Shown here: positions 8,961-64,000 of the stretch, piece after piece
Numbering within the stretch: position 1 is the first letter of the stretch
How the letters are laid out: the number at the start of each line of letters is the position of its first letter
Assembly (NCBI GenBank): GCA_964019135.1
Contig: OZ025258.1
Coordinates: 36,056,126 to 36,120,125 of the forward strand
Reading direction: 5' to 3'
DNA from: Arenicola marina
Taxonomy: Eukaryota; Annelida; Polychaeta; Arenicolidae
Length of the DNA stretch: 64,000 bases
Notes under the pieces: generated by a model
What the model was told of the DNA's origin: nothing
Database searches by the model: none
Seen by the model: only the letters and a program-made list of their open reading frames with translations
Made by a program: the position numbers and the translations under genes

Positions 8961-9488
8961 ATAGTTGGAACAACTCTCAGCGGCAAGGGCATAAAATTGA
9001 GGAAATTCTCCTTATAAATGACATCCATCTCATGGTATATGCATCGATATAGTAGAGGCAATGAGGCTGGACCTCAAACCAGTCCTTAAACTAACAACCT
9101 TTAGCAACCCGCTGGAGGGAAATCCAGAATTTCCTGCTACGTCCAGTAAGATTCGATCGATTCAGTTACAATTTTTGCTGATATTTCACAAGCCGTCAAT
9201 TGGGCAAGGCATGATAGTTCAACGTTTAAACTTTAATACCGTCACAACGCTAGTATAGTACGTCTATCACAGGTTATTATCACAAAATTGTCCCAGGCAA
9301 TGGCACTTGGTAGCATTGTATGGCGAGGAAAAGGGCAACAAGGGCATACACTCTTTGAATCTTATATAAGACAATAACTATGTCGAGTGCTATGTAGTTA
9401 AGCGGCTTCAAAAGTAATCTGTGTTTTCTGTCAAATAGGGCAAGTTTATTGTTTGAATACTCTAAATTGGTGGACCCTATATTACGTT

Positions 9489-9494
9489 TTTATT
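9489..9494 (-). terminator. Polyadenylation signal of exon 8b
   Basis: AATAAA on the minus strand, about 28 bases after the exon 8b stop codon. Confidence 0.6.
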
Positions 9495-9521: not shown

Positions 9522-9652
9522 TCAAAGCTTGGCCTTGTCTTCAGGAAATCTGCCGATTCTGAAGAGACGCATGCTGGGTGACTGTGGAGACTTGGACGTG
9601 ACCAGTTCGGTGAGCAGTCGACCAATCACCGGAGCTCTCATGTACCCGTGAC
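9522..9652 (-). CDS. PIPOX: PIPOX terminal exon 8b (ends AKL)
   Basis: Begins after CCTCCAG in phase 1 with [18 protein letters not shown] and ends RFPEDKAKL before TGA. AKL is a good type-1 peroxisomal targeting signal. Its own AATAAA lies about 28 bases downstream (9489-9494 on the minus strand). With exon 8a it forms a pair of alternative last exons. Confidence 0.88.
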
Positions 9653-12600
9653 CTGGAGGAAATGAAAACACAGGTGTTTGTCTATACAGAATAAATATAC
9701 AAATATAGAACTGTGTTACAATGGTTAACAATTTACTATATTTCATACCAAAGTATATCATCAATTATATATCATTGGCTGACTTGCTTACGTGACGTCA
9801 GTTCAAGTTATTTTATTGACTGTTCCAATTTTATAACTCTCCAATATTAATCAACGTAATGAAAAAAAAACATTCACAAACCCTAAAAAAGAAATTGTGC
9901 GACACTCACATAACAGAACTATTTACATAGTTTCTTTAAACATTTACCGAAAGTACACACGAGCGAACAACTACCACATAACCATCCACACATCAGCAAG
10001 TAATAAGCTGTCTGGAAAGCGAATCGGTTAATAAGGGTGAGAAAGCCAAATGTTTCATCATGCCTTTATTCGTCCTTTCTGGCGTTAAATTTTGGCCTTC
10101 TGGTTTGAGAATCTGTTCAATCTAAAAGGCTGCACACTGTAGGAGGTCTGGCAACGCGTGACAAGCTCCATTAGCAGACGACCAATCACAGGCGACCTTA
10201 GGAAGCCGTGACCTACAAAAGAGTGGGACATGTTCTGCATTGTTTAGCAAAAGTTTGTGGCTATATTATTACCGCTTAGATTTTGTGCTATAATTTCATG
10301 TGGTATAGTTACAAGAGGGGCATATATATAGACTAGAGTGTTGTATTAAGGACTGAGCGTCCTGCTGCACCGGCTACATTAATTGGCACTTGTCTCCTGG
10401 TCACCAGCGTGAAATAATGCAACTGTTACAGAAGTGAAAAACGACATGAATTGTATTTCGTCTTCGTCTCCGTAACACAACATAGATAACTAGGAAATTT
10501 TAAACTGTAACGAATGGCAAAGTTCACCTAACCCTTAAATATGCTTATGTGATCATATTTGAGACATTTTTACCATGCAGTGGATACACTTGTAAATCAT
10601 TCTTTCCAGCCAAAACTAAGCCCAGGCGAAATTTATATCAAAATTTGCAGAAAACTCGATTGTTCCATTCCATAAATTCAGAAATCTGATAAACCTCGCC
10701 GTTTCGGCGGTGGTGTGGCAAACGTGTCTATCCCGCGACACCACAGCACTCTGTCGCGGCACTGCTACTTATAACAAAGCATCGCGAAGCACTCAAACTG
10801 ATGACGTTTACCACTAAAATGAAAATTTGTGGTAAATTGATATCACGGGCAAGGCTAAGAGACACTATTTGGCTGTGTGGCATGGGTGGAGTATAGACAA
10901 AACCAATCTTGAATGATTCAAGGACTGATTCTTATTTGAATTTTGACCTCTTTAGTTTTGGCGGGAAAGAGCTCCACATGCAACTTTAAGCACAGCTACA
11001 AACGCGTATTTTTCTGACTTATTTTAGCTTCAATAACCGACGTATATTGTTGTCGACTCTGATGTCGTTGTCTATTCTGAAGGCAGTGTCAGATTTAACT
11101 GTTCCCCCATTTTCGTCGAGACTGCTGTTGGGAGCAGTGGAGTTTAGCAGGCCCCCAGACACCAGCTACACTTGATCGCGGTCTTAAAGACACATTAATA
11201 CGTTAGCGAAAATATCATTGAAGAAGAAATTGCTACGACGGAAACAAGTTTTGCTATATATATACGGTGTCCAGCCATAAGTGACAAGGCAGGTCAGAAT
11301 TGACAACCACAGACAGCAAATCAGAATATTATGAATCAGACGTGGTAGCAACGTTACCTAGGCAACCGTAAATCCTAACCCGACCCACGTCACAATCGCG
11401 ACTCTGGGAACCTGTTCACGCGGAATGGTTCGTTATTGTACGGCGGTGGAGTGCCAAGAACCAGGGATGCGAGAATTCTACCAGTGACTGGAGCCAACTT
11501 GAACCCGGTTCCTAACAACGAGAGAACTCAACACGTTAAAGCGGTCGCGTAGCAACGACTCATGCCATTGATGCCCTGTCGTCTAGTTACGATATAAATA
11601 GGTCATTCATGAACTCGAATACATTCGTTTAAGTTTGATTTTTCATTCTGCTACAACACGGATATGTATTTTGCGCAATCTGAACTTAAGCGTTTTTATA
11701 AATCTCACGTGTGTCTTCTTATGATCTATATATTTCATGTTAATATTCGACACATCATTAATATAGCCAACGTTCACCAGAATCACAGCAACAAGGGAAA
11801 ATATTGCAACCTAGGCAAAGCATATGGCGTCCCAAGCCAATCATCTACTAAGAGGGTGGGGTTACACATAATAACGCCTAGTGTAGGAAGCATATAACCT
11901 AAGCATGAACCCACATAACATATGCAAATAAATAGACAGAATGCCTTCAATCATCACACAAATAGGAAATATTGCATGCCAAAGCCAAATTGACAGATAA
12001 GTCGCACAAATTACTAATTACATCATTATAACAACTTGCATGCAGATTAAATGCACGAGGATGTAACTTGAAAGCTGAAGCGTGTTGATTGTCACGCGGT
12101 ACTGGGTTGTCACGCGGTACTGGGTTGTCACGCGGTACTGGGTTGTCACGCGGTACTGGGTTGTCACGCGGTATTGGGTCGATCGGTCCATATTCCATGT
12201 TAGACCCCCCCCCCCCCCGAAATGTATTATTGTAGTAACTGGTAGTCGTGAATAATACGTGAGCTATGCCAAAACAATGGTTCGATCAAACATGGAAGAA
12301 CGACCGGCCCATCGGTGATAATTGCTGAGCGCCATTTCTGCGTTGTTGTACCACGTGACTTACCGCTGAATCCTGCTCCGATGACAATGTTGGAATGTTT
12401 CGGGTGGGTATCCAACACGTAGTGCTTATCCGGGGTCATCTGTATGATGGGATTACAAAATATCGACATCGAAAGATTTCTATTAATGTGAAGGTAAAAT
12501 GAAACGAATTGGTGTTTAAGGCCGCTACAAGAGCCAACACTAAGCCACGGAACCTGTCTGGACGATAAATGATGAGCAAATAAACCATATTAGGTGCCGG

Positions 12601-15600
12601 ATTGGGAATCAAACCACTAAGACAGGGAGGCCCACCCACGTGTGGAGGTTACTCAGCAACGAGACGAGATGAGCTTGGTTACCACTCGGGATGAATGATA
12701 TGTAGGCTTCCTGAAGTCCCCTGTTGATTATATTCGACATAACACCACGGCCTGAAGTCCCCTGTTGATTATATTCGACATAACACCACGGCCTTGAGTC
12801 CCCTGTGGATTATATTCGACATAACACCACGGCCTGGAGTCCCCTGTTGATTATATTCGACATAACACCACGGCCTGGAGTCCCCTGTTGATTATATTCG
12901 AAATGACGTCCCCCCGTTCGGGACTCACGGTGTACATGCAGGGCTCCAGAATACTGGGTTTGTCCTCCAGTCCAGTCAGATGATCCCGGACGTACTGGCC
13001 TACGATCTTGACCAGCTCCTGGTTGCCCGCCTGGTCCCGCTCATCTGGATGGCAGTAGTACGGCGGCGGCTCACCCCGGGTCACCATCTGGATCGAGTCC
13101 GGACATTGTCTTAATCTGAAGAGCTGGAACTGGAGCTTTACATTCCTCATATTTTAACAGTCCAAGCTGCCCGCCCACCAATTTCACGAAATCAGTTTAA
13201 AAATAATCTTGTCTAAATCAGTTATATTGATACTGTTAGTGTTCACTGGTTTCAAAACGATATGTGTTAGCAAATAGACCTTCAACTTTATGGGCAAAAC
13301 ACCACAACGATGTACCGATGTATTTTGATGACGTAGTACAAAAGTCACTCTTTTCCACATGAGAACAAAATATACCTTTCATTTATTACTTATAATACAT
13401 TTGTATTTAATAGGCAAAAATTAAAGGACCAACATGATCTGATTTTTAAGAACACCTACATATATAAATGATGCATTATTATTAAACAAAAGAAAATGAA
13501 ACGCTTTAAAATTAAAGTAGCGAGTAGTATAGAATAAATATAAGACTTGGGTCAAATTGAACACCAAGTGTAATCTTTGACTTTTGGACAAACAAACATC
13601 CCATATCAATACATCATGCGTTAAGGGCATCGCCTGTTCGCACAACTATACAAAAAGCGCTTCGGTCCAACAAAGTTGGGTATGTTTGCAGGACATACCA
13701 GTCATGCAACTAGCAGCTTGCCACATAGACCCTGCGCACTCACTCCACACAACCTACCTGGTACAACTGGAATGCGGGGGGGGGGGGCGGGGGGGGGGGG
13801 GTTAGACCCACTGTGAAGCCAGACATGAAGGCTAAACCGGATGACGTAATTTGACAATGACACGCACCATGTAATGTGGTTGGTTGAAACATGTCCCAGA
13901 GGCCGGTGGCATGGCGCGAACCCCCGACCCGTTAATCCTAAGCTCAGCCTGTTTACCAACAGAGCTATGGGAAGGGGGTCTCATCCAGTTACAGTACTTC
14001 CATATATATGACAAACATTTAGTCCAAAATAATGAGGGCACTGTCAGCATTTAAACAGCAGCATGAGTTTCAGCTTACCTGTCGATTGGTTCTAGCATTA
14101 CATTGTTCACATGTAGCAAGCTTAGTAATACGAAACACCGATTTTCCCTTGTGACCTCAACAACTCATTAGCAATAAACGATTAGTGTGAAGGTCTGTCT
14201 TGAATATCGTAAACATAGGTGTAACTTGGCAATCCTCGTGTAAGAAGTTCAGATCCACTGTCAAGACCTTGTAGGCCTCACAGCCCTGTCGGCATAGCGG
14301 AAGATACACATGGAGAGAGGGTACCATAACTTCTGTCATGGTACAGTGTATCGCCCACCAAGCCCATAGCCCAACTGAAATTTACCTTGACCATGTTGGG
14401 GTACTCATAGCTCGGGAAGAAGCAGACAAATCGATATTCTCCCGGTTTGTATCGCAGGTACTGGTATCCAATGGGACAGCCATTGTCCACGCTGAAGTCG
14501 CCAGGCGGCGCTGTGGTGTCGCACACAAAGGCGCTACATCCGGGCATTGTCTTGGAGGTGGGGTCACACAAACAGCAAACGAGCGCATTGGGAGCGGCGC
14601 GATGGCAAATCAAGCAAAAAAGCCATTAGTTATATACAACGAAACCATCACATTATTAAAGATACAACACGGCCTGTTGGTCTGTGTTAACAAGCTCATC
14701 AAGACTCGAGGGCAAACATATAGGCTTCGGCAGCAGCATTCATGGGACTGAAAGTGCGAAAGGAATATATTGGCATATATTGTTACAGTCAACTACACTA
14801 AACCTCACAGAATACAAGCCGCTTCAACGGTTATGCGAAGAGAACTTTGTAACATGCCGGATGGAAAAGTTCAAGGAGAGAAAAGTTGGAATATAGTCAG
14901 GATTTGTAGCATAGGCTATATCGAGCTATACTCGGACCAGTTCGAGATGAAAAACAATTGCTATTTGCGCATACCGAAGAAAAATCTCAACCACGATACC
15001 TTACCATGACATAAAAACGTCGTCTCCGCTGCCTTGTAAACACGGAAACGCATTCTAAGTAGAACATTATGTCGACTGGCGCAAGAACAAAACAGACTCA
15101 TCGAAAACGATGTTAGCTACCAACATAATGGACGATTTAAGTCACTCTCTGAACATGTAACTCAAGCCATCGGCGACTTTGACTCACGACCACTCAATCC
15201 AGTTCATTAGTCGCGGTAATCAAATCTTCAAATCAGCCAAAGTCGACAGCGCAAACATGGAATTCAGCCACGCATCCCAAAGTCAACCAACCATGCGCGG
15301 ATTACACACCAGTAGTTAACAAGTGAAGACCTTTAGTTCAGAGGGGAGGGGCGGGGGGGGTGGGTTATAAGCCTGGCGTCACATCACGTCATTGGGCAGA
15401 CCTTGACTAGTCCAGGAAACAGAAGGCAAGGCGTACACGACGCGGTAACCCGCCATTTTGTACCCGTGATCATCAACTACAGGGGGCGCCCCTCTACTCC
15501 TAGAGAGTGTCCGAGCCCAGTGGATAACAATGGGGAAGTGTGAGAAGTCGGTGTGTACAGAGAGGGTGAGAGTCCGGTGACAGCAGACTGTTCCCGGCAT

Positions 15601-17910
15601 GGTCTGAGAGAGAGTAGAAGAGTAAGATGGTGCTCACTATAGAGAGAATAGAATGTGGTCATAAAGGTCGACAAACAAACATAACCATGCAAAACCATAT
15701 GGACCTACTACAGTAACTTAGGGGGCGGAAGTGTTATATCAATATCCTCTAGAGCTGATGGCGATACCGGAAGACCATTAAATCAAACTTCGCATTCAAA
15801 CCAAGATTATTGACTGGGAATTATGGCACATGTCAAAATGATTCAATGTTATAATGTTGCATAATATTTACTAATACTTGGCTTCAGATAATAATACTTC
15901 TATGTCAGTTTTTTAAGCTTCGATCTGGAATGTCATTATTTGAAGAAAAAAACATTTAAAGACTTTTTCCAGAAAAATTCCTGGTACGTAGAAAATGGAT
16001 TACAGCAACGAAATATAGATAATGCTTGAAAACTAGACTTTCGTAAATATACCGATAAATCTGTAATGCTGAGGCCATGTACTACCTTTAAGGGTATATT
16101 AATCCCCAATCCATTAAGAATATCAAGACTCCAAGGGCCAGCCGCCAGAACTATTTTCTTTGCGTAGTACTTTCCGCTCTTTGTGTTCAAAGTGACAGTA
16201 GAGCCCGGCGTAATGCTCTCCACCTTCACACCGTCCTCAATCACCCCTCCCATTCCTTCGAATTGTCTCTGAAAACAAGGAAGTCTATGTTAAGTCGGGG
16301 CTTTGAATTGCAAGTAGGATTCACATACGTAAAATGAATGCATCAAATGAACGGTTCATATCTATAAGTGCAAGCAATTGACATTCACAATGTACTACCG
16401 AGCCGGAGATGAACGAAAAATTGAATTTACCATTAAAAAGCTCCAGATTGTAGTTTAAATAACATTGGCAGCAAAATCATTTCCTTAAAGCTGGCTGTAC
16501 ACTGAATAGTCCCTTTGCTCGACTACTCCAAACATTTACCCTTTGTATGATACGTTCTGTTTGTTTTATGTTCTACTTATGTGTTCCGCCATCGAAGCAT
16601 TTTTTGTGTGTACTCATATATAAAGATGACTAGGCGTTAGCAATTAACTAATCTTAGCCTGTTTCTCCCAACCTGCAATACCTCTGTAATGCGTATGTCT
16701 TTATATAACAACATATTTTTTTGTTTGGTTAAATAAATGAAATGAACTCTCTCAACTCTTACTCCCTTACTCGTAAATCAGCTATTATGTTAGAATTTAA
16801 AAGACAGGGTTACACGCTGCTATCGCTTAGTGATACGACCCTCTGGTACCTTACCGTGAGGGCATTTATGCAGCGACCCGGAAGTAGCAAGCCCGCTGTC
16901 TCGTCCAGCAGTGCGCGCGCCGAGGCGTCGTATTTGAGCATAGGATAACGCGACCGGATGTCGTCTGCCGAAAGCATCGTGTAGGGGAGGCTGAACTTGT
17001 CCATAGCCGACCGGCATTGGGTAATAATCCCTTGATTATCACCCTCCTCCAGCAGCAACAGGCCTGTCTTACTGAGGACGGCAAAAATATATATGATTAT
17101 AATCACCCACATCTTAAAAACAGATAGAGATGCATACATCTATATATCTTAACAAGATATCACATAAGACACATACTACATGCATATACATACAAATTTG
17201 AAATTGACAGTGTAGTTTTAATGATAAATTAATATTTAAATATATCTGCAGCAGTTTCTTTAGCATTTAGTTATCTTCAAACAGTAAATAAATTTATTAT
17301 TCATGAAAATACTTAATTAGTTTCAAATGTATTTCAGCAAATAGAAACTCATTAATTGATTTTGAGTTGAAATATGAATCACATGAAATATTTTATATCT
17401 AAAAAGTGCACACATACACAAACAAAGTTTTGCCATAATCGTTTTCCAGCTTCTTCCATAAAGCATTGCACTCAGGCATCATCTCTGCGTAGAAATCCTC
17501 ATTGTAGACCTGCCTTATGATTCTGGAGTGACCCCCAGAGCTCCCCCGGGAATGGGGCAGCTGAAACTGCACATTAAAATTCAGTTATTAAAATGCCACA
17601 CATGGCTTACCAAACACAATTTTAATTATATTGATGGTATTACTATATATATAATAAAGTATTCTCTTCAATAAATGAGTGACAAGTAATTTTGCTTGAC
17701 TTGCATTTATCACAGCTTGTATCTTCACAGCTAGAATTTGACCAAGGAAACTATGGCATTCCTGTTACAGGGAAGAGTACATTAATGTCTAATTACCTGC
17801 TCCAAGACAAGGGTGCGAAGGCCTTTAGCAGCCAGGTGATTGGCTGTCCACATGCCAACAATCCCTGCCCCTACCACAATACAATCCCACACCCCTTCTG
17901 AAGATGCCAT
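9522..17910 (-). CDS. PIPOX: Peroxisomal sarcosine oxidase / L-pipecolate oxidase, complete gene
   Basis: An FAD-dependent amine oxidase of the monomeric sarcosine oxidase family, which oxidises sarcosine, L-pipecolate or related imino acids with release of H2O2 in peroxisomes. Coding exons (all minus): 17910-17797, 17566-17424, 17071-16855, 16268-16086, 14550-14386, 13087-12929, 12439-12364, then either 10212-10085 or 9652-9522. Phases agree at every junction and give 394 or 395 residues; human PIPOX has 390. Visible landmarks are the N-terminal dinucleotide-binding VVGAGIVG, the GGHSRIIR flavin-contact segment in exon 2, LAAGPW in exon 4, the EPCMYT cysteine (which carries covalent FAD in this family) ending exon 6, and [10 protein letters not shown] in exon 7. 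The least certain boundaries are the exon 2 donor, exon 5 and the 5' end of exon 6. The duplicated last exon gives two C-termini, AKL and AKI. Confidence 0.9.
10065..10070 (-). terminator. Polyadenylation signal of exon 8a
   Basis: AATAAA on the minus strand, 15 bases after the exon 8a stop codon. This is a very short 3' UTR if used. Confidence 0.6.
10085..10212 (-). CDS. PIPOX: PIPOX terminal exon 8a (ends AKI)
   Basis: Begins after TTTTGTAG in phase 1 with [18 protein letters not shown] and ends [10 protein letters not shown] before TAA. An AATAAA polyadenylation signal lies only about 15 bases past the stop (minus strand of 10065-10070). The sequence is collinear with exon 8b and with the human C-terminus. 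The tripeptide AKI is a weaker variant of a type-1 peroxisomal signal than AKL. Confidence 0.85.
12089..12178 (+). repeat. 18-bp minisatellite, 5 copies
   Basis: The unit TTGTCACGCGGTACTGGG is repeated five times with almost no divergence, implying recent expansion. The minus strand translates as repeated PRDNPV, which is an artefact of the 18-base period inside a PIPOX intron. Confidence 0.9.
12182..12310 (+). repeat. Dispersed repeat, CATGTTAGACCCC family
   Basis: CCATGTTAGACCCC, then CGAAATGTA, then TACGTGAGCTATGCC and AACAATGGTTCG form a diverged repeat. Related copies lie at about 58768-58820 and 59412-59516. In the last copy it directly follows a SINE tail, so it may belong to a composite element. 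Confidence 0.55.
12364..12439 (-). CDS. PIPOX: PIPOX exon 7
   Basis: After CATCATACAG it encodes [19 protein letters not shown] and IGAGFSG, 76 nt, ending in phase 1 at AGCG|GTAAGT. This is the most conserved segment of the family. The phase-1 end fits both copies of the terminal exon. Confidence 0.9.
12710..12902 (+). repeat. 41-bp minisatellite, about 5 copies
   Basis: The unit begins CCTGAAGTCCCCTGTTGATT and has starts at 12710, 12751, 12792, 12833 and 12874; the last copy is partial. It ends 26 bases from the PIPOX exon 6 donor, inside intron 6. Confidence 0.9.
12929..13087 (-). CDS. PIPOX: PIPOX exon 6 with the covalent-FAD cysteine
   Basis: Encodes [15 protein letters not shown], then [10 protein letters not shown] and EPCMYT, ending in phase 0 at ACC|GTGAGT. 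The cysteine of EPCMYT corresponds to the residue that binds FAD covalently in monomeric sarcosine oxidases. The 5' boundary is chosen at CGATCCAG for length agreement; an in-frame alternative further upstream cannot be excluded. A 41-bp tandem repeat begins only 26 bases inside the following intron. Confidence 0.75.
13088..14385. other. PIPOX intron 5
   Basis: Contains a G-run at about 13778-13801 and a reverse-orientation tRNA-like head at about 13885-13980. No coding exon was recognised. Confidence 0.5.
13880..13985 (-). mobile_element. tRNA-derived SINE head, reverse orientation
   Basis: On the minus strand, AGCTCTGTTGGTAAACAGGC (A-box-like) is followed by GGGGGTTCGCGCC (B-box-like). The downstream CTGGGACATGTTTCAACC resembles a phrase following the head near 61.3 kb. 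It lacks a full cloverleaf, so it is not called a tRNA gene. Confidence 0.5.
14386..14550 (-). CDS. PIPOX: PIPOX exon 5
   Basis: Fifty-five codons in phase 0, ending [11 protein letters not shown] before GTAAAT; this matches the family motif G(L/F)P..EYP.LMK. The 5' part (from [10 protein letters not shown]) is poorly conserved. The acceptor CCTCCAAG was chosen because it keeps phase 0 and puts PPGDFSV at the human VPGSYGV position. Confidence 0.7.
14551..16085. other. PIPOX intron 4
   Basis: About 1.5 kb with a G-run near 15346-15361 and otherwise unique-looking sequence. I see no feature that I can support. Confidence 0.4.
16086..16268 (-). CDS. PIPOX: PIPOX exon 4
   Basis: Exactly 61 codons, phase 0 to phase 0, between TTTTCAG and AAG|GTAGTA. 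It encodes [16 protein letters not shown] and the IVLAAGPWS strand that precedes the flavin site in this family. Confidence 0.9.
16855..17071 (-). CDS. PIPOX: PIPOX exon 3
   Basis: After the acceptor CCGTCCTCAG it encodes [11 protein letters not shown] through a conserved [17 protein letters not shown] block, 217 nt, ending in phase 0 at ACG|GTAAGG. The TGLL and AGLL motifs are typical of the family. Confidence 0.9.
17424..17566 (-). CDS. PIPOX: PIPOX exon 2
   Basis: Starts after TGTGCAG with [18 protein letters not shown] and continues through the [10 protein letters not shown] segment aligned to human PIPOX. The 143 nt end in phase 2. The donor is a weak GTTTGT, the least certain junction of this exon. 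Confidence 0.85.
17797..17910 (-). CDS. PIPOX: PIPOX exon 1: start codon and FAD-binding GxGxxG
   Basis: Thirty-eight codons from the ATG at 17910 ([10 protein letters not shown]) through VVGAGIVG, the Rossmann-fold ADP-binding loop, to LVLEQ. It ends in phase 0 at CAG|GTAATT. No signal peptide is present, as expected for a protein imported into peroxisomes from the cytosol. Confidence 0.9.
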
Positions 17911-61280: not shown

Positions 61281-61435
61281 AACATGCCCCATGTTAGACC
61301 GCTCAGGCCGGGTGTCGAACCAGGGACCTATTGATTTGTAGCAAATAGAAGACATCTGTGCTTTGATCAAATGCGGGCAGTCGGCTATCATTGTAGGCGC
61401 ATGTGCAATTACCCTGACGTGTAGACAGGAGAACC

Positions 61436-61505
61436 GCCGTGGCCGAGAGGTTAGTGTGCTCGACTACAGACCAACGGGTCAGGGATTCCAAACCGACGTC
61501 CATGT
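61436..61505 (+). mobile_element. tRNA-like SINE head preceding the 28-bp array
   Basis: GCCGTGGCCGAGAGGTTAGT is an A-box of Ser/Leu-tRNA type. GGTCAGGGATTCCAAACCG is a degraded B-box. The last bases (GATTCCAAACC) resemble the unit of the minisatellite that starts immediately afterwards. Confidence 0.55.
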
Positions 61506-62640
61506 GTACGGGGCCGATTCCAACCCCTTTTTGTGTACCGGGCCGATTCCAACCTTATATATGTACGGGGCCGATTCCAACCCCTTTTTGTGTATGGGGC
61601 CGATTCAAACCCCATATGTTTATGGGGCCGATTCAAACCCCATATGTGTATGGGGCCGATTCCAACTCCATATGTGTATGGGGCCGATTCCAACCCCATA
61701 TGTGTATGGGGCCGATTCAAACCCCATATGTTTATGGGGCCGATTCAAACCCCATGTGTGTATGGGGCCGATTCCAACCCCTTTTTGTGCATGGGGCCGA
61801 TTCAAACCCCATATGTTTATGGGGCCGATTCAAACCCCATATGTGTATAGGGCCGATTCCAACCCCATATGTGTATGGGGCCGATTCCAACCCCTTTTTG
61901 TGTACCGGGCCAATTTAAACTCCATATGTGTATGGGGCCGATTCCAACCCCATATGCGTATGGGGCCGATTCAAACCCCATATGTTTATGGGGCCGATTC
62001 AAACCCCATATGTGTATGGGGCCGATTCCAACTCCATATGTGTATGGGGCCGATTCCAACCCCATATGTGTATGGGGCCGATTCAAACCCCATATGTTTA
62101 TGGGGCCGATTCAAACCCAATATGTGTATGGGGCCGATTTCAACCCCATGTGTGTATGGGGCCCATTCCAACCCCTTTTTGTGTATGGGGCCGATTCAAA
62201 CCCCATATGTTTATGGGGCCGATTCAAACCCCATATGTGTATAGGGCCGATTCCAACCCCATATGTGTATGGGGCCGATTCCAACCCCTTTTTGTGTACC
62301 GGGCCAATTTAAACCCCATATGTGTATGGGGCCGATTCCAACCCCATATGTGTATGGGGCCGATTCCAACCCCATATGTTTATGGGACCGATTCAAACCC
62401 CATATGTGTATGGGGCCGATTCCAACTCCATATGTGTATGGGGCCGATTCCAACCCCATATGTGTATGGGGCCGATTCAAACCCCATATGTTTATGGGGC
62501 CGATTCAAACCCCATATGTGTATGGGGCCGATTCCAACCCCATGTGTGTATGGGGCCGATTCCAACCCCATGTGTGTATGGGGCCGATTCAAACCCCATA
62601 AGTGTATGGAGCCGATTCAAACCCCATAAGTGTATGGAGA
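61500..62640 (+). repeat. 28-bp minisatellite with ~394-bp higher-order repeat
   Basis: About 40 copies of a unit written as TATGGGGCCGATTCCAACCC plus CATATGTG. Variants include GATTCAAAC, ATGTTTATG and a one-base-longer CCCCTTTTTGTG form. A distinctive variant (TTTGTGTACCGGGCCAATTT) occurs at about 61896 and 62290, exactly 394 bases apart, showing duplication of a block of about 14 units. As 28 is not a multiple of three, reading frames cycle through all phases every 84 bases; no phase contains a stop on either strand, so long frames arise. Confidence 0.93.
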
Positions 62641-64000
62641 CGATCATCCTTTCATCTCATTGTCCCATGTGTGCACAAAGTTGGCCCAAAACACCAGTCC
62701 GTTAATTCCATTTGGAGGTTTGAGAACCTTGGGTCTTTTGAGAGGGTACATAGAGGGGGTTGCAAATGTTGGGCTTGATGTAGAAGAAGGTCGTGACATT
62801 ATAGTAATCATAAGGGACCTTAATGCTGTTAAGCACAATACAACATCGATCAATTATGAGAATAAATGGTCACATAACGCATTTCTGAGCATTTCTGATA
62901 CTCCACTTGTTTTCTAATAGGCCTATGGTTTGACTGGTTTTGTTGCGCAGGCCGCCGAGGGACAGACGCGCACACGACGTAGTTTAGCTTTTATTAACCA
63001 CCGGCCTTATCACGTGAAAGGATCCTCATTAAAATCTCATAGCTCCCGTTATGGAGAACCCGTATCTTGGCTGCCCCGGTCTGGTCCCTCGGGGTTGCAC
63101 ATTTTCGGTGGCACCTTGTCTCTTAGGCGCGCCATGGGTCCCCTTTCGTCCTCCTCCCCACTCCTCCCCCTCATCCTCTCGTCCTCCCCCCTCCCACCTC
63201 CCCCTTCTCTCATCCTCACCCCCTCCCCCCCCCCTCAACCCGTCTCTCGCGCCCGGTCACGACACTATGATTTGACAGATAGCAAGCGTAGTATCGAGGC
63301 AGATTCCGAACCAACGTTGGCCAGTGTTGGCAGCCACAGTGACAAGGCGGGAGAGATTTTTTCGGGGAGGTGAGGTGAGGTGAGGTGGGGACGAGGACGG
63401 GGTGAAGGTGGTGGGCGCGGATGGCGGATGGCGGTCGGGGGAGGGCGGAAGTAGGATGGGCTGAGGGGGGGGGGCTAGAGGTAGGAGTCGGTTCTGGGAT
63501 GGGGGGATGCGAGAGGGGAGGGGGGGGCGATTAGGAATGGGGGTTGGCATGGGTTACTCGCTTTCCCGCAACATCCCATCTGTCACCTCGAGCACAATAC
63601 ACAACAGAAGACAGTGTATCAACCGAGACTGTGAGGCCGTTGGGCGAGTGGAATCCCCCATCGATCACCCTGGCTCAGTGTCCACAGCCTCCCCTCCCCT
63701 GTGTCGGTCGGTAGAGCCCATCGCCCTCTCGTCCTCCTTCATACGTTCATTTGCAGGCAATACTGCTTCGGCAATAAGCCAATTTATATTGAGAACATAT
63801 GTGTGGCAACTGAGCACGTCATATCATGTTAATGATGATGTGATATCACGTCGTGTCTGTCGGATCGTATGTGATGAATGTGTCACGGCTAAGGTAAGAA
63901 CTGAACTGCAGATTTTTCATGTTCGTTCTTGCACGATAGCATTGCGTAGCTCACGGATTGCCATCCCCCAGCATTTACTTCAATTCTGTATTTTGTGAAC
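62641..64000. other. Right edge, no supported gene
   Basis: CT-rich sequence at 63150-63240 and GGTGAGGTGAGG/G-runs at 63365-63530. A plus-strand frame at 63507-63998 is open but unrecognised. A donor-like AAG|GTAAGA at about 63895 is the only hint of splicing. Confidence 0.35.

Follow-up and report, generated by a model that had tools for sequence, protein, structure and literature searches.

Tandem duplicated exon substitution, the alternative use of homologous neighbouring exons, is well described: of 236 such events in human, 77 affect the C-terminus, the three tandem 3' exons of TPM1 being an example, and the regions exchanged in this way are reported to overlap ligand-binding sites rarely (PMC9741552). 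Several enzymes are known in which a duplicated exon touches catalysis more directly. In COQ-2, the choice between the mutually exclusive exons 6a and 6e alters strictly conserved residues near the substrate and thereby the product, as established by RNA and genetic proof (PMC7434440). In ACSL6, a mutually exclusive pair of fatty acid gate exons alters the substrate-gate motif of the enzyme, and the corresponding transcripts were isolated (PMC1543647). PGM1 carries duplicated first exons that go back to an old duplication, with a divergence similar to that found here (roughly 51% identity) and a paralog lacking the duplicated exon; the active sites of its isoforms are reported to be identical (PMC7101342).

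The gene analysed here, a PIPOX-like gene of Arenicola marina, resembles these systems in having adjoining homologous exons of the same phase, here three terminal exons termed 8a, 8b and 8c. Its closest functional parallel is COQ-2. Whereas the exons of COQ-2 form an internal pair and those of ACSL6 a pair represented by transcripts, the three terminal exons of this gene are known from DNA, and their alternative use, which is documented in the described cases of tandem exon substitution, is proposed from the sequence. Unlike the 5' exons of PGM1, the endings differ in the active site, and in contrast to the human exon swaps, for which overlap with ligand sites is rare, an active-site residue is exchanged. 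A literature search on the splicing of PIPOX or sarcosine oxidase gave nothing among the matches listed, which is weak evidence of absence. The reading that we favour, with a probability of about 0.6, is that 8a, 8b and 8c are tandem duplicated alternative terminal exons that would give isoforms with different substrate pockets.

The gene was analysed in one window, a stretch of 64,000 nucleotides from a single genome of 867 Mb. The size of this genome, its introns and its gene content point to an animal, and its COX1 contains 13 in-frame TGA codons. Located on the minus strand, the gene consists of seven shared exons followed by the three possible terminal exons (Table 1). The full proteins predicted with 8a, 8b and 8c have 394, 396 and 397 residues, respectively. 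Tandem repeats were seen in two of the introns, one of about 41 nt between exons 6 and 7 (window about 12700-12905, by eye) and one of 18 nt between exons 7 and 8a (12071-12178). Elsewhere in the window, at about 61342-62705, there is a long tandem array of a GADSNPICVWGRF-like repeat that is open in several frames.

Table 1. Features of the PIPOX-like gene, in window positions.
Feature	Position	Strand	Remarks
Exon 1	17797..17910	-	start codon, FAD-binding GAGIVG; PF01266 match at this place
Exon 2	17418..17566	-	residues aligned with MSOX Arg52 and Tyr55
Exon 3	16855..17071	-	exon of paralog P1 has equal length, 217 nt
Exon 4	16086..16268	-	
Exon 5a	15402..15603	-	additional copy of exon 5, reading-frame shift near 3' end
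Exon 5b	14386..14550	-	frame intact; 56% identical to exon 5 of P1
Exon 6	12929..13087	-	Cys aligned with MSOX Cys315
Exon 7	12364..12439	-	common donor GTAAGT
Terminal exon 8a	11390..11511	-	Lys at MSOX position 348; ends SRL
Terminal exon 8b	10085..10212	-	Leu at MSOX position 348; ends AKI
Terminal exon 8c	9522..9652	-	Met at MSOX position 348; ends AKL
AATAAA 3' of 8b	10065..10070	-	15 nt past 8b stop
First AATAAA 3' of 8c	9489..9494	-	28 nt past 8c stop
Second AATAAA 3' of 8c	9445..9450	-	72 nt past 8c stop

The gene belongs to the monomeric sarcosine oxidase/PIPOX branch of the FAD-dependent oxidoreductases, as a PIPOX-like paralog. The two isoforms scanned against PF01266 (DAO), those with 8a and 8c, scored 153.2 and 152.1 bits, above the cut-off of 27.9 bits. 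Against TIGR01377 (soxA_mon), the isoforms with 8a, 8b and 8c scored 334, 341 and 329 bits, and two paralogs found in the same genome, P1 and P2, scored 311 and 432.7 bits; the curated cut-off of 479.65 bits was reached by none of these five. Since P2 scored highest, it is the better PIPOX candidate. The window gene, which the sequence-only reading had named PIPOX, is therefore a PIPOX-like paralog. Searching the genome with the protein and two composites of exons 7 and 8, in which only the best candidates were scored and counts are therefore lower bounds, returned the window gene, P1 and P2 at C11:28.9 Mb and one distant match on C19, whose motif reads GASGHGIQHSP. P1 (L030, G000:C11:28907611-28913399) and P2 (C11:28939313-28951072) are located on one chromosome-size contig. 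Both have the splice phases of the window gene and, in the 57 kb examined there, a single terminal exon each. A tree of exons 1-7 placed P1 as sister of the window gene with a local support of 1.0. P1 ends in SKL; where MSOX has Arg52, Tyr55 and Lys348, it carries Lys, Asp and Ala, respectively, and judged from these residues its binding of carboxylate substrates, if any, may depart from the usual mode.

That three homologous terminal exons in phase exist at this locus is as good as certain. Each is preceded by AG, takes up the phase of exon 7 and is open to its stop codon. The sequence-only reading had described two paralogous last exons. Both were recovered as 8b and 8c, with their acceptors, the exon 7 donor and its phase, the open frames to the AKI and AKL stops, an AATAAA of their own and 432 bases between them (433 in that reading), but the third exon, 8a, had been missed. 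8a lies closest of the three to exon 7 and encodes TGFKLAP...FPESRL, followed by TGA. In searches within the window, the 8b and 8c proteins were 56% identical (E 2e-11), and 8a matched 8b at E 1e-7 and 8c at E 3e-6. Moreover, an independent tool joined the three places into a single family of direct DNA repeats, in which identity to the reference is 76% over 58 nt for the 8b/8c pair and 60% for 8a, the third copy. Chance likeness of the terminal exons was ruled out by the E values of 3e-6 to 2e-11 in the window together with the DNA repeat.

Comparison with the conserved catalytic residues of the family indicated where the three endings differ. In the Sox family, Arg52, Tyr55 and Lys348 are conserved residues that form salt bridges with the carboxyl group of the substrate (PMC12582975). 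The Lys of 8a was placed on Lys348 by residue counting in alignments to solved sarcosine oxidase (PDB 1el5 and 1zov). At this position P2, like 8a, has Lys, whereas P1 has Ala, 8b Leu and 8c Met. The Arg and Tyr at positions 52 and 55 come from exon 2, so that, by aligned residues, the triad is complete in the 8a isoform and incomplete in the 8b and 8c isoforms. The Cys at position 315, the position of covalent FAD in the Sox family, is encoded by exon 6 and is common to all isoforms. The proteins match PIPOX and monomeric sarcosine oxidase over most of their length and keep the Cys315, Arg52 and Tyr55 positions, whereas Lys348 is kept in 8a and absent in 8b and 8c. The earlier proposal that the choice of the last exon could change active-site-adjacent residues can accordingly be put more sharply, as the exons differ exactly at the lysine that binds the substrate carboxylate. 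Loss of Lys348 would be expected to alter substrate choice.

Lys348 was found in all 31 distinct prokaryotic relatives examined, out of 33 distinct ones (296 genomes, 31 of which gave 32 matches, plus L050, with L049 and L051 counted as one gene) that had been gathered with a profile containing Lys-bearing rows. L066 and L069 have gaps in the alignment of the motif around Lys348. A scan of genome contigs with one isoform as query returned no relative, and the alignment-based scan returned two. Position 345 is occupied by Thr in 8a and by His in 8b and 8c; among the prokaryotic relatives it is Ser in L049/L051, Trp in L066 and L069 and His in the rest.

The constraint on the terminal exons was assessed by comparing agreement at the codon positions. 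Between 8b and 8c, 59 of 82 first and second positions are identical, against 16 of 41 at the third (Fisher p 0.00045); the corresponding figures for 8a and P2 are 42 of 78 and 11 of 39 (p 0.007). The same test gave p 0.024 for 8c and P2, 0.015 for 8a and 8b, 0.05 for 8a and 8c, and 0.066 for P1 and P2, the genes with a single last exon. A stricter test, in which one side is taken as neutral, was applied to 10 pairs and gave values below 0.05 for 8b-8c (p 0.005), 8a-P2 (p 0.012) and 8b-P2, the last being unreliable because of saturation; the other seven pairs were not below 0.05. These tests are weak because the exons are short. With strong divergence of 8b from 8c at third positions but conservation at first and second ones, the comparison nevertheless argues that at least these two exons stayed under selection. 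In a neutral-decay simulation that started from 8c and allowed substitutions only, insertions and deletions being ignored, the open frame was kept in 39% of copies at d 0.3 and 25% at d 0.63, and the open frame together with a PTS1-like end in 8.7% at d 0.3, 1.8% at d 0.63 and 0.24% at d 1.26.

In a tree of the last exons (34 columns), P1, 8b and 8c formed one group (SH-like support 0.917), with 8b joined to 8c (0.874). 8a was placed outside this group (0.682), with P2 next (0.133). The simplest story, which is weakly supported, would be that a copy without the Lys predates the split of P1 and the window gene, that P1 retained this copy alone, and that the window gene retained both, with a further duplication of the Lys-less one.

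Exon 5 of the same gene appears to be duplicated as well. TMPG in phase 0 after AG occurs at only 2 of the 6970 AG sites in the window, 15603 and 14550, where 5a and 5b start. In 5a, VYALPS is found in one frame and FPGLVK, before GT, in another; this splitting of the motifs over two frames points to a frame-shifted duplicate of exon 5, the shift being either real or an assembly error. Compared directly, 5a and exon 5 were only marginally similar by shuffling (p 0.02 versus 5b, 0.04 versus P2 and 0.29 versus P1), and tblastn in the window did not join 5a to 5b; the case for 5a therefore rests on the TMPG count. Its acceptor, with 14 of 16 pyrimidines, is the richest of the ten acceptors tabulated. 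As to 5a as an intact alternative exon, the donor that looks best (AAG before 15401) falls out of phase and the last phase-0 GT ahead of the stop (15387, after GAC) looks weak, which a frame shift explains. 5a is probably unused, or out of frame if used.

Exon 5 of P2 covers the stretch Met245-Tyr254-Lys265 of MSOX (counted on the alignment), which would make both duplicated exons, 5 and 8, pocket-forming. At the position of Tyr254, with which P2 aligns, 5a has Tyr and 5b has Cys, and exon 6 has Arg where a His of P2 aligns with His269. In addition, TMSG (ACAATGTCCGGA), resembling the start of exon 5b, follows an AG a short way 5' of exon 6 (13109, minus strand); as TMPG is matched at three of four letters at 7 of the 6970 AG sites, this is perhaps a further relic and perhaps chance. 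A more far-reaching proposal, which we put forward only tentatively, is that one gene gives several enzymes by the choice of its last exon, with the Arg-Tyr-Lys set in 8a and Leu or Met in 8b and 8c, that the substrate class changes in this way, and that 5a is a trace of a former pairing in which exon 5, like exon 8, had interchangeable versions.

The extra copies might be explained without alternative use. It is rather unlikely, in our estimate, that a single exon serves as the true ending while the remaining copies are unused leftovers of exon duplication whose decay is pending. Several observations count in favour of such relics and against three functional endings: exon 5a is a decayed duplicate in the same gene, 8a has no canonical poly(A) hexamer, since neither AATAAA nor ATTAAA but only variant hexamers were found in the 1,177 nt between 8a and 8b, and an open frame alone often survives neutral change, as it did for 25% of the copies in the simulation at d 0.63. 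Relics would not be expected, however, to show the codon-position pattern of 8b and 8c, which suggests that both are constrained, nor to retain an acceptor, the phase, a stop and a PTS1-type end in all three copies; moreover, the three isoforms fit the soxA_mon model almost equally well. Very improbable is an origin of 8b and 8c as the last exons surviving from a tandem gene that lost its other exons, even though P1 and P2 lie on the same chromosome-size contig and the last exon of P1 clusters with these two. Within the window, the search detected exons 1-4, 6 and 7 once each, the remaining matches besides the exon 8 copies having E values of 0.001 or worse, and the genome search, in which the best candidates were scored, yielded none to spare for 8b and 8c. 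Constraint on both exons also speaks against a remnant, and, since 5b precedes 8a, the copies are interleaved and not in tandem gene order. With no spare upstream exons found, 8b and 8c could splice only to exon 7 of the window gene, and the view that they are parts of another gene was rejected.

The sequence-only reading had further suggested that the choice of the ending tunes the location of the enzyme, the AKL and SRL forms, in terms of the present exons, being imported into peroxisomes and the AKI form poorly. The less canonical AKI and the occurrence of peroxisomal isoforms by alternative splicing in other genes (PMC4207609) are in line with such a shift between peroxisome and cytosol, which we nevertheless consider improbable. 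SRL, AKI and AKL are all SKL-like tripeptides of the PTS1 type, for which import is predicted, and in the fungus Histoplasma AKI on its own brings a reporter into peroxisomes (PMC13343957). Zebrafish Pipox has the PTS1 SSL, called weak by the authors (PMC8919083). Furthermore, the differences between the exons span the whole exon, including the lysine of the pocket. Taken together, the three PTS1-like ends, the activity of AKI in Histoplasma and the weak PTS1 of zebrafish Pipox make a switch of the pocket, and not of location, the natural reading.

Alternative terminal exons, as first proposed from two copies, thus remain the best reading of the locus and are strengthened by the third copy, the common phase, the lack of spare exons and the codon conservation, the use of the exons being inferred. 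Exon 7 would splice to one of 8a, 8b or 8c, each with its own 3' end, giving isoforms that are identical up to the GFSG motif and diverge over the final 39 to 42 residues. Of the 16 positions from -20 to -5, 11 are pyrimidines in front of 8a and 13 in front of each of 8b and 8c; among the 459 AG sites of the gene region, 14% reach 11 pyrimidines and 2.2% reach 13. As 8a has a middling tract and lacks a canonical poly(A) signal, while 8b and 8c have better tracts and AATAAA, we propose that the balance of splicing against cleavage most likely decides between 8a and the distal exons. A weaker proximal and a stronger distal ending would fit a regulated choice of the last exon. The 8a enzyme would have the full Arg-Tyr-Lys grip on the carboxylate, and the 8b and 8c enzymes, without the grip of the Lys, would have other substrates or weak activity. 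All three isoforms are expected to go to peroxisomes.

If the exons are used, the gene would provide natural active-site variants on one scaffold, one ending having the Lys and two lacking it. It would then be possible to test substrate choice in sarcosine/pipecolate oxidases with isoforms that differ only in about the last 40 residues, and an enzyme-pocket case would be added to the C-terminal tandem exon swaps.
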